64,000 nt of DNA. Origin: Favolaschia claudopus. Its lineage: Eukaryota; Basidiomycota; Agaricomycetes; Agaricales; Mycenaceae. The notes beneath the pieces were generated by a model that was not told the origin of the DNA, did not search any database, and saw only the letters and a program-made list of their open reading frames with translations. The position numbers and the translations under genes were made by a program. Numbering within the stretch: the stretch's first letter is position 1; every line of letters starts with the position of its first letter. The DNA lies in NCBI GenBank assembly GCA_037176885.1, contig JAWWNJ010000110.1, positions 744,001 to 808,000 of the forward strand, written 5' to 3'. Shown piece by piece: positions 5,932 to 46,113 of this stretch.

Positions 5932-6654
5932 CTAGTATGGAGCATAGCGGTTATCGTTGAGGAAATCGCTGCGCACCCTCCCAACTTCGCTGAGTTCTTG
6001 GTCGTCATCGCCCGTAAACACCTCGAAATTTCCCGTGTCAGCGTCAATTAAGGCGTCCATGTCCTCGTCGTCTGAAGCCGAAGCCTTGTCTGGGTGCAAG
6101 GCCGCGCATCGCGAGAGAGCCTCGAATATCGGTTCCACTGCCAATGTTCTTGAATTCAAGTCAATGGGCACATATCGCGCAAACGTACGCGAATCAGCGC
6201 TTTGGGGCACGATAGAAAGTTCGCGCATATCGCTCATCTCTTCATTCGAGGCAGCACCTTCGGGTTCACCAGCATGTTCATCGAGTTGGCAATATATTGA
6301 GGGCCCGGCCTCTGCGCGAGAGATGGCGTGCAGGGTGATGGCTGGGTACTCGATTTGAAAACCGCGTCCAGTGGTCGACATGAATGCTAGAACGCTGGAG
6401 TGAATCGATTTCCAGTACTAGAGAGAAAAATAACACGGATCGAACCTTTCTATTATATACAAAGTGCCTTTTGCACCGTCCTCCGGCGAAAACCCATCCA
6501 GTGGAGGATCCAGCGCTACCGAGACATTTTCCTCCTTGTGTCGAAGCACGGCCGGGATGTCGGAGAAAGAAGCGGGGGTTTCTGCTGCAATAGTTGTACG
6601 CTCTTCGCGCGAGACAAAGTGTGGAACGCTGGTTATCGGCGCTGTTGAAGGCAT
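5932..6654 (-). CDS. pICln / methylosome subunit (Lot5-like PH domain protein)
   Basis: Two exons, 6446-6654 and 5932-6394, joined across a 51-nt intron; the sum is 224 codons including stop. The spliced protein (223 aa) has the pICln PH-like signature: a strand ending GTLYIIES, then VLAF, then TTGRGFQIEYPAITLHAISR, and an acidic region (ASDDEDMDAL) after the CAALHPD motif. In animals pICln delivers Sm proteins to the PRMT5 methylosome during snRNP assembly; in fungi the role is less studied. ATG at 6654 was chosen because it directly precedes conserved sequence. Its 3' end converges with the nucleoporin gene, and its 5' end is divergent from the SH3 gene 110 bp away. Confidence 0.8.
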
Positions 6655-43892: not shown

Positions 43893-46113
43893 ATGCCTCC
43901 GAAAAAAGCGGCTGCAGCGGAGAAAAAGACTCTGCTGGGACGACCAGGAAACAATCTCAAAATCGGCATCGTAGGTCTGTTCGTACACAAAATCTTCGAA
44001 ATACCAAGTCTCATATCAGGTCAGGAGTACCAAACGTTGGCAAGTCGTCGTTCTTCAACGCTCTCTCCGAGACAGGTCAGTCGACAGTCCGCATCGTCTG
44101 ATTGTCGTTGATAACCTCGTCTCGTAGATCTCGGGAAAGCAGCCAACTTTCCTTACGCCACTATAAAGTGAGCCACTCGACAGTCTGTACTTTTACAGTT
44201 GGCGTTGACTTTCTGCTCCTAGTCCTGAGGTCAATGATCTCAAGTGGTAATTGATCTTCCGAAATTTATGCTTCATGTCCAGGAAGCGCGCATCCCCGTA
44301 CCCGACACCAGATTCGAATGGCTATGCGATACATACAAGCCACAAAACCGCATCCCCGCATTCCTTACCTGCATCGACATCGCTGGGCTCACTGCGGTAT
44401 AATTGTCTCGTTTTGCTGTATTCTTTATTTCCTGATCTGAATGCCACAGGGTGCCTCTACAGGCGCTGGTCTCGGCAATGCCTTCTTGTCACACGTCCGT
44501 GCCGTTGATGGGATATTCCAGATGGTTCGAGCGTTTGACGACGCTGAGGTTATCCATGTCGATGGGGATGTTGATCCCATACGCGATATGGCCACCATTC
44601 AGACGGAGTTGCGACTCAAAGATATTGAGTGGACCGAAAAGGCCCTCGAGAATCTGAAGAAAACGAGTCGTAGTTTGAACAGTACTAGTCTCGCTGACAA
44701 AGCGAAAAAGGAGGAGCTGGTTCGTGTGCTGCAATTTCACCTATCGTCTTTCGACTCAGTCATGTTCAGGCCACCGTAGAGAGGATCCTTGCCCATCTCA
44801 ATGACGGCAAGGACGTGCGCAAGGGTGACTGGAATAACAAAGAGGTGAATACACAGATCATATATCCTTCATGACGATAAAGAGCGATAAGCTCGATAAC
44901 CCAGCTCGTCGAGGCGGGAGTAACGCCCCAACATGCCCATGAGAACATTTTTCATCTGATTTCCTTGCCCACTCGATGAACGTCAGACTTTTTACTGATT
45001 TCATTTCGTCTAGGTAAATATATGCTTCAGTCGCCGTCCACTTCCCCCCCTTTTGTATGACGATAAAGAGCTGTAAGCTCGATAACCCAGCTCTTCGAGG
45101 CGGGAGTAACGCCCCAACATGCCCATGAGAACATTTTTTTTCTGATTTTTCTTTACCACTCTCACTGCGAGAACAACGCTGACATCCGCTATTGTTAGGT
45201 GAATACTCGTGTCCATTTTTGTCTGCTTCGCTCCACATGAAGATAAAGAGCTGTTAGCTCGATAACCCAGCTCGTCGAGGCGGGAGTAACGCCCCATTGT
45301 GCCTATGAGAACTAGTTTTCTCTGATTCATATTCATCTCACTTTGTCGTTGACCGATTTTGCGCTAACCAATCGTGTGCAGATCGACGTGATCAATGGAC
45401 TCATGCTCTTGACCGCTAAACCCGTAACATACCTTGTCAATCTAAGTGAGAAGGACTTCGCGCGAAAGAAGAACAAATGGTAGGTATTCTGACCGGAGTC
45501 GAAAATTCGCTCATTTGGCTGCAGGCTACCGAAGATCAAGGCCTGGATTGACGAGAACAACCCGGGTGATAGCCTCATTCCTTTCTCCGTCGCTTTGGAA
45601 GAACGGTTGGCGCCGCTGTCTCCTGCTGAAAGGGAGGAAGCCCAGAAGGCGGCCGGCGCAACCAGCTCTCTTGGCAAGATCACACAAGCAGGATATGCTA
45701 GTCTTGATGTGAGGCGTCTCGGAAAAATAAAAAGCTAGCTCTGACCTGCTTCAGCTTATCCGTTACTTCACTTGTGGCCCAGTTGAGGTTCGTGCATGGA
45801 CCATTCGAAAGGGAACCAAGGCTCCTCAGGCTGCTGGCGTTATCCAGTCAGTGTCATTGACAAATCACTACCTTGCTTGCTGACTCGACTTGCTCAGCTC
45901 CGACTTTGAAAATAAATTTGTCTGTGGCGAAATCATGTCGTACGAAGATTTGAAAGAACATGGATCCGAAGCTGCTGTCAAGGCTGCTGGGAAACTGAGA
46001 CAACAGGGCAAACCGTACGAAAGTGGGTCCATTCTGCTGTCACAACGAAGTCGGTGCTGAACAAATTGGCAGTGATTGACGGTGACATTGCCTACTGGAA
46101 GGCAGGCGCATAA
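43893..46113 (+). CDS. OLA1: Obg-like ATPase Ola1
   Basis: Starts [21 protein letters not shown]. The P-loop [43 protein letters not shown], the altered G4 motif NLSEKD that gives ATP rather than GTP preference, and a C-terminal TGS domain ([31 protein letters not shown]) are present. It is a ribosome-associated ATPase linked to translation and stress control. Exon structure is unusual: a 7-nt exon at 44223-44229 (encodes the end of NPE before EARIPVPD) and a 537-nt intron (44845-45381) between NNKE and IDVINGLM, about ten times the local intron size. That intron is a triplicated tandem intron. Confidence 0.93.
44871..44959 (+). ncRNA. Candidate intronic box C/D snoRNA, copy 1
   Basis: 89 nt from a C-box-like ATGACGA to a perfect D box CTGA, ending 54 nt before the unit acceptor. 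Conserved body: AACCCAGCTC (44898-44907), complementary to GAGCTGGGTT of 25S rRNA, followed at a one-base gap by a degenerate D' (TCGA), then a GGCG...CGCC hairpin and a C'-like ATGAGAA. The terminal stem is weak, and the C box has one deviation from RTGATGA, so snoRNA identity is a strong hypothesis rather than proven. Confidence 0.6.
45057..45145 (+). ncRNA. Candidate intronic box C/D snoRNA, copy 2
   Basis: Same length (89 nt) and boxes as copy 1: ATGACGA start, CTGA end, 53 nt before its acceptor. AACCCAGCTC at 45084-45093. It differs from copy 1 mainly at the first small loop (TG for GA), one base after the guide (T for G) and the variable stretch before the D box. Confidence 0.6.
45237..45325 (+). 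ncRNA. Candidate intronic box C/D snoRNA, copy 3
   Basis: 89 nt, ATGAAGA start and CTGA end, 56 nt before the acceptor. AACCCAGCTC at 45264-45273 is unchanged. This is the most diverged copy (ATTGTGCCT for ACATGCCC, different pre-D sequence), yet with no indel. Confidence 0.6.

Follow-up and report, generated by a model that had tools for sequence, protein, structure and literature searches.

Adjoining snoRNA introns with no exon between them were described as 'complex introns' in the noncoding clusters I–III of ascomycetes (Luo et al., 2013; PMC3596301). Of 42 spliced ESTs in that work, 18 were missing intron I, 14 introns I and II, and 10 all three introns, and the ESTs together with RT-PCR fit a stepwise removal from 5′ to 3′, alternative use of acceptors also being possible. 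The clusters were explained by exon loss, with losses counted in Hemi-, Eu- and Archiascomycetes, and the cluster snoRNAs were all intronic in the Basidiomycota sampled. In work on the recursive and nested splicing of snoRNA polycistrons in Candida and Debaryomyces, an exon size of zero between snoRNA introns is likewise given for Debaryomyces (PMC5033589). Intron 7 of the gene encoding OLA1 (Obg-like ATPase 1), analysed here, resembles these systems in that several apparent snoRNA introns adjoin at an exon length of zero. Both the ascomycete clusters and the yeast polycistrons have noncoding hosts and carry different snoRNAs, whereas intron 7 lies in a protein-coding gene of a basidiomycete, repeats one snoRNA and varies in its number of units between copies of the locus.

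Several other systems share single features with intron 7. In the polyubiquitin gene UBC, tandem repeats are bounded exactly by a dual-use AGGT that serves as 3′ or 5′ splice site, but those repeats are coding and can be kept or skipped in frame, whereas all of the OLA1 units must go to keep the frame (PMC10809524). Stwintrons are fungal compound introns that need successive splicing (PMC8469720), as would intron 7; in a stwintron a splice element of the outer intron is split by an inner one, whereas the elements of the OLA1 units are all whole. The copy number of the SNORD115/116 tandem repeats is thought to change by non-allelic recombination (PMC11028025), although these form large imprinted arrays rather than a run of short adjoining introns within a single coding gene. 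Most box C/D snoRNAs of Neurospora lie one per intron, and the distance of a snoRNA to the 3′ splice site matters (PMC2780460). The guide and D′ box of the Rfam snR69 alignment recur in the OLA1 units, which differ from snR69/Afu_304 and Neurospora CD27 in standing three in a row, in scoring below the gathering thresholds and in the stretch that follows D′. The combination of a protein-coding host, a basidiomycete, one repeated snoRNA and a varying number of units was not found in searches of open-licence papers, made mostly at the level of listings.

Host gene and copies of the locus

Within the window (the whole 64-kb stretch of DNA analysed), the spliced OLA1 frame (Table 1) has its closest protein matches in Mycena Obg-like ATPase 1 (93% identity). 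Intron 7 (44845–45381; 537 nt) lies between the codons for NNKE and IDVING, and the remaining 10 introns measure 45–55 nt each, in agreement with a sequence-only reading that had put it at about ten times the local norm. The locus occurs on three contigs of the assembly, namely C110 (that of the window), C23 and C51. Neighbouring parts of the window, separated by as much as 24 kb (tested within 36001–63000), stand in the same order on all three contigs at 92–98% identity, one of the compared stretches carrying an insertion in C23. The three contigs are probably haplotypes, and their number suggests three haplotypes or a third nucleus.

The 14 closest proteins all bear the label Mycena, and in 13 of them NNKE, ANKE or TNKE runs directly into IDV with no residues between. 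Among the 120 protein matches listed of 7978, the junction could be read with a sequence pattern in 109. The OLA1 of Mycena polygramma (P0012) has nine extra residues exactly at NNKE/IDV, probably reflecting a wrongly called acceptor of the same intron, and two Pisolithus proteins (P0070 and P0109) differ there by one or two residues. No insertion was seen at the other junctions read in this set, proteins being uninformative on introns.

Table 1. Features of OLA1 and its intron 7 (positions are those of the window).
Feature	Position	Strand	Remarks
OLA1 (Obg-like ATPase 1) coding region, host gene	43893..46113	+	12 exons, 11 introns, 392 aa; spliced open frame
Intron unit 1, 169 nt	44845..45013	+	GTGAAT...TCTAG; CTGAT 44995–44999; unit 1 of C23 and that of C51 also have GT, CTRAY and AG
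Intron unit 2, 185 nt	45014..45198	+	GTAAAT...GTTAG; CTGAC 45179–45183; C23 unit 2 and C51 unit 3 retain the signals
Intron unit 3, 183 nt	45199..45381	+	GTGAAT...TGCAG; CTAAC 45364–45368; C23 unit 3 and C51 unit 4 retain the signals
AG/GT junction of units 1 and 2, zero-length exon	45012..45015	+	
AG/GT junction of units 2 and 3, zero-length exon	45197..45200	+	
Copy 1 of the box C/D snoRNA-like core, 89 nt from C box to D box	44871..44959	+	Rfam snR69 31.7 bits, Afu_304 28.3 bits
Copy 2 of the box C/D snoRNA-like core, 89 nt from C box to D box	45057..45145	+	Rfam snR69 39.8 bits, Afu_304 27.1 bits
Copy 3 of the box C/D snoRNA-like core, 89 nt from C box to D box	45237..45325	+	Rfam Afu_304 31.1 bits, snR69 26.2 bits
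Guide AACCCAGCTC of copy 1	44898..44907	+	D′ TCGA shortly downstream
Guide AACCCAGCTC of copy 2	45084..45093	+	Letters same as Rfam snR69 consensus
Guide AACCCAGCTC of copy 3	45264..45273	+	Exact guide-plus-D′ word

Splice signals of the three units

The sequence-only reading had divided intron 7 into three units, each with its own donor, branch motif and acceptor, that meet at AG/GT with zero-length exons. Borders, junctions and branch motifs are exactly as it described them, and the sequence supports three complete introns lying back to back. The branch A is followed by 15, 16 and 14 nt in units 1, 2 and 3 respectively. Over the three copies of the locus, AG/GT is present at 7 of 7 internal junctions (both of those in C110 included) and GTRAAT, CTRAY and YAG are kept in all 10 units, with only conservative changes between copies (CTGAT to CTAAT and TTAG to TTTAG).

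An exact CTRAY stands close to the 3′ end of every unit but of only 3 of the 10 other OLA1 introns, so that in this respect the units are better than most introns of the gene. Their donors, GTRAAT, lack the G at +5 that is found in 8 of the 10 other introns. The composite pattern CTRAY-N8–20-YAG/GTRNNT occurs twice over the two strands of the 64-kb window together, both occurrences being the intron 7 junctions, against an expected mean of 0.27 per 64 kb and approximately 0.0004 per 95-nt spacer (30 first-order Markov sequences), and a looser pattern asking only for YAG/GT occurs nine times over both strands (0.0067 per 95 nt); the sites were already known when the patterns were composed, which makes these chance odds post hoc. 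With the donor form GTNNGT, common in OLA1, the composite has no match in the window, and neither junction fits it.

A 106-nt repeat occurs three times in intron 7, at spacings of 186 and 180 nt, its outer copies being 84% and 83% identical to the middle one. The flanks outside the snoRNA resemble shuffles in five of the six pairwise comparisons among units 1–3 of C110; only the 5′ flanks of unit 1 and unit 2 stand out, their similarity being equalled by 9 of 500 shuffles. Within C110, a shared origin of the units thus seems visible mainly in the snoRNA core.

snoRNA-like cores and their likely target

Each unit contains a box C/D snoRNA-like core resembling snR69 and Afu_304, which guide methylation of 25S rRNA. 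The core was overlooked in the sequence-only reading, and its presence likely explains why the units have each retained splice sites of their own. The snR69 match of copy 2 has an E-value of 0.00021 for 2.4 kb and 0.0055 for the whole window. All snoRNA matches fall below the Rfam gathering thresholds, the best reaching 39.8 vs 50 bits for snR69 (RF00475) and 31.1 vs 35 bits for Afu_304 (RF01511), and no Rfam match in the 64-kb window is at or above gathering; all four matches at E ≤ 1 in the window lie inside intron 7. The snR69 guide and D′ sequence are present, unit 2 reading AACCCAGCUCUUCGA, like the Rfam snR69 consensus. Nine of the 10 units contain the guide-plus-D′ word GATAACCCAGCTCNTCGA without a mismatch, and each copy of the locus has three intact guides. 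Nine exact places were listed in the 264.6-Mb assembly, all nine within the three copies of intron 7, and the exact word search found no other source of this guide there. Two mismatches added 16 further places, compared with 20 at up to two mismatches for the reversed control. The core had no match in viral contigs, and a search of the genome itself with RF01511 gave none either but carries no weight, its controls having been equally silent.

Box C/D snoRNAs have the consensus RUGAUGA for the C box and CUGA for the D box. The D box is CTGA in 10 of 10 units, and the C box (ATGACGA, ATGAAGA or GTGACGA) is one base off the consensus. A terminal stem was not seen: in all 10 cores no pairs abut the boxes, at most two consecutive pairs form within offsets of 4, and the flank-to-flank duplexes have energies of −1.9 to −7.0 kcal/mol. 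In mammalian systems, box C/D snoRNAs without such a stem depend on their position relative to the branch point. The distance from the D box to the 3′ splice site is 53–56 nt in all 10 units, though the 5′ flank spans 26–47 nt, and that from the D box to the branch A is 37–42 nt. The constant spacing to the 3′ splice site, with no terminal stem, favours each unit using its own branch point. After D′, the stretch GGCGGGAGTAAC (44913–44924) stands in the same place in the other two cores and may simply be a hairpin arm; it may equal a conserved sense stretch of 25S rRNA, which was not found in L019, the rRNA locus examined.

The guide AACCCAGCTC pairs with GAGCTGGGTT at L019 5940–5951, approximately 50 nt outside the Rfam LSU match (5999–6138). 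This site lies in a 28-nt word, matching exactly once, that we take to be 25S sequence. The C of GAGCTGGGTT faces the guide position five nt upstream of D′, and the nucleotide paired at that distance from the D′ box is the one methylated. In a scan of pairings the site ranked among the top three for only two of the 10 units, below longer pairings that involve unannotated parts of L019; a 13-nt pairing to one such part was top-ranked in 9 of 10 units and was given no weight. The GAGCTGGGTT site, presumably in 25S rRNA, would be the likely target of the guide. LSU Cm2945 is listed as guided by snR69 (PMC3511168), and the intronic Neurospora CD27 has snR69 as its yeast counterpart, at 26S-Cm2906 (PMC2780460). 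L019 5940–6138 is a 25S rRNA fragment within contig C42; full-length or intact rDNA was not found in the assembly with two patterns.

Variation between the copies

Whereas C110 and C23 hold three units each (168, 190 and 183 nt in C23), C51 holds four, of 169, 186, 193 and 183 nt. The second C51 unit is a mosaic. Its 5′ flank matches that of C110 unit 2 (43 identities, no mismatches, one gap), whereas its 3′ flank matches that of C110 unit 1 (51 identities, two mismatches, one gap). Along the 65 alignment columns that separate unit 1 from unit 2, many of them gap columns (18 of the first 34 are one single gap) and hence not independent, the first 34 comprise 33 that are unit-2-like and 1 that is unit-1-like, and the last 31 comprise 29 that are unit-1-like, 1 that is unit-2-like and 1 that is neither. 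The switch falls between the guide and the fourth base beyond the D box. We infer that this unit is the product expected of a crossover between unit 2 on one strand and unit 1 on another.

The neighbouring C51 unit 3 (L007 3401–3499) has lost most of its guide, yet its donor, branch motif and acceptor are intact. Its core scores 64.6 bits compared with 114.8–120.5 bits for the nine others, from which the model itself was built. Of the 29 alignment columns that distinguish this unit from C110 unit 2, only one lies in the 3′ flank, and its history may include a further recombination. DNA searches of the genome, whose counts are lower bounds, found the unit nowhere beyond the three OLA1 loci, and an introner-like or transposed origin is not supported on this ground.

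A control locus

A U14-like (SNORD14-like) locus was compared at five places, which fall into two types (L029, L031 and L033; L030 and L032). Matches at all five score 31.2–35.1 bits against a gathering threshold of 64. The match extends over approximately 200 nt against a 111-nt model, an unusually long U14. At two of the five places the preceding intron contains a weak SNORD12-like match (24.6 of 43 bits; E-value 0.35). Between the SNORD12-like and the U14-like introns, some 40–60 nt read as exon in an alignment of the five places with splice sites placed by eye. An AG stands directly before the GTGAGT donor at one of the five places (L029) and one base before it at L030. A zero-length exon appears not to be kept at this locus, being possible in single copies, and zero-length exons as a general habit of the genome are unsupported by this one control. 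A pattern for snR70, with three places against one for its reversed control, was dropped.

Discussion

We consider it probable that intron 7 is a tandem exonless array of three complete introns, each bearing one snR69-like snoRNA, that are removed stepwise and multiply by unequal crossing-over. The spliceosome would take out the units one after another, probably from 5′ to 3′, each removal leaving the next donor whole and rejoining the exon end GAG to a fresh GT, until the final step joins NNKE to IDV. The order would not be forced, because the remaining junctions still read AG/GT after any removal; a 5′-to-3′ order is favoured by the spliced ESTs of the ascomycete clusters (PMC3596301). Each lariat would then be debranched and trimmed to yield one snoRNP methylating the snR69 site of 25S rRNA, and one snoRNA per intron would fix the distance of each snoRNA to its own branch point. 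Partial splicing would not give OLA1, because every combination of retained units over the three copies (29 of 29) meets a stop within 21 codons. Against an array of working introns stand the donors without a +5 G, the lack of any junction fitting GTNNGT and the absence of clear flank homology in five of six comparisons; against the snoRNA identity stand the sub-gathering scores, C boxes off RUGAUGA and the missing terminal stem. The splice signals may also persist simply by descent, the copies differing by only a few per cent.

Removal of all 537 nt in one step, as a single intron with a cluster of three snoRNAs that an endonuclease separates and with internal AG/GT that are unused relics, appears unlikely to us. 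Two snoRNAs do occur in a single intron and can stay joined (PMC11028025), and the internal donors, lacking a +5 G and a fit to GTNNGT, would agree with disuse. The internal junctions nevertheless exceed the chance estimate (itself post hoc) and are intact at all seven places, even beside the decayed snoRNA, in a gene whose other introns do not exceed 55 nt, and snoRNA copies 1 and 2 would sit far from the branch point used.

The origin of the array is a separate matter. An origin by exon loss, in which the exons that once kept individual snoRNA introns apart disappeared, the explanation offered for the ascomycete clusters, would suit flanks of units 1–3 that are no better than shuffles in five of six comparisons, but we regard it as quite unlikely: the same snoRNA occupies all three units, the C51 mosaic points to the gain of a whole unit, and no lost coding exon is visible at NNKE/IDV in 13 of the 14 closest proteins. 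The sequence-only reading had proposed tandem duplication of a whole intron. That part which concerns gain and loss of whole units fits the difference between three and four units, whereas the flanks of units 1–3 are mostly shuffle-like, and the original duplication is a supposition. The extra C51 unit, as a unit-2/unit-1 mosaic, is the only place where whole-unit duplication seems to be seen directly. Either the duplication is old and the core has been kept alike by selection or recombination, or the cores came into separate introns; an old duplication would be the more economical of the two because of the C51 mosaic.

Alternatively, the donor at 44845 might be paired with acceptor 1, 2 or 3 at choice, with no use ever made of the internal donors. 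Alternative acceptor use was likewise held possible for the ascomycete clusters (PMC3596301), but we find it improbable here, since products ending at acceptor 1 or 2 would retain stops in frame until they were spliced a second time, and since all internal donors have preserved GTRAAT. Repeats are prone to assembly error, yet misassembly as the source of the repeats or of the four-unit copy is very hard to credit given the mosaic structure of the extra C51 unit, the 29 alignment columns that set its neighbour apart from C110 unit 2 and the presence of the three-unit state in two copies. A stwintron was rejected, no splice element being interrupted and donor, CTRAY and AG being whole in every unit.

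For the tandem array of complete introns, the C51 mosaic suggests how the number of units could change: unequal crossing-over within the near-identical snoRNA core would add or remove one complete intron and leave the OLA1 mRNA unchanged. We lean, with some reserve, towards the wider view that an intron-plus-snoRNA cassette multiplies within a protein-coding gene by unequal crossover, so that new and fully functional introns, separated by zero-length exons, would be gained and lost as copy-number variation between copies of the locus within a single assembly, with the protein untouched and each snoRNA keeping its own intron. Intron gain would then require no new splice site, since recombination within a conserved snoRNA would place an additional whole intron inside an existing one. 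Because copies of the locus have three units or four, both recursive splicing and the rule of one snoRNA per intron could be tested in a gene that encodes a protein, and the decayed copy in C51 would permit a direct comparison of the upkeep of splice signals with that of the snoRNA.
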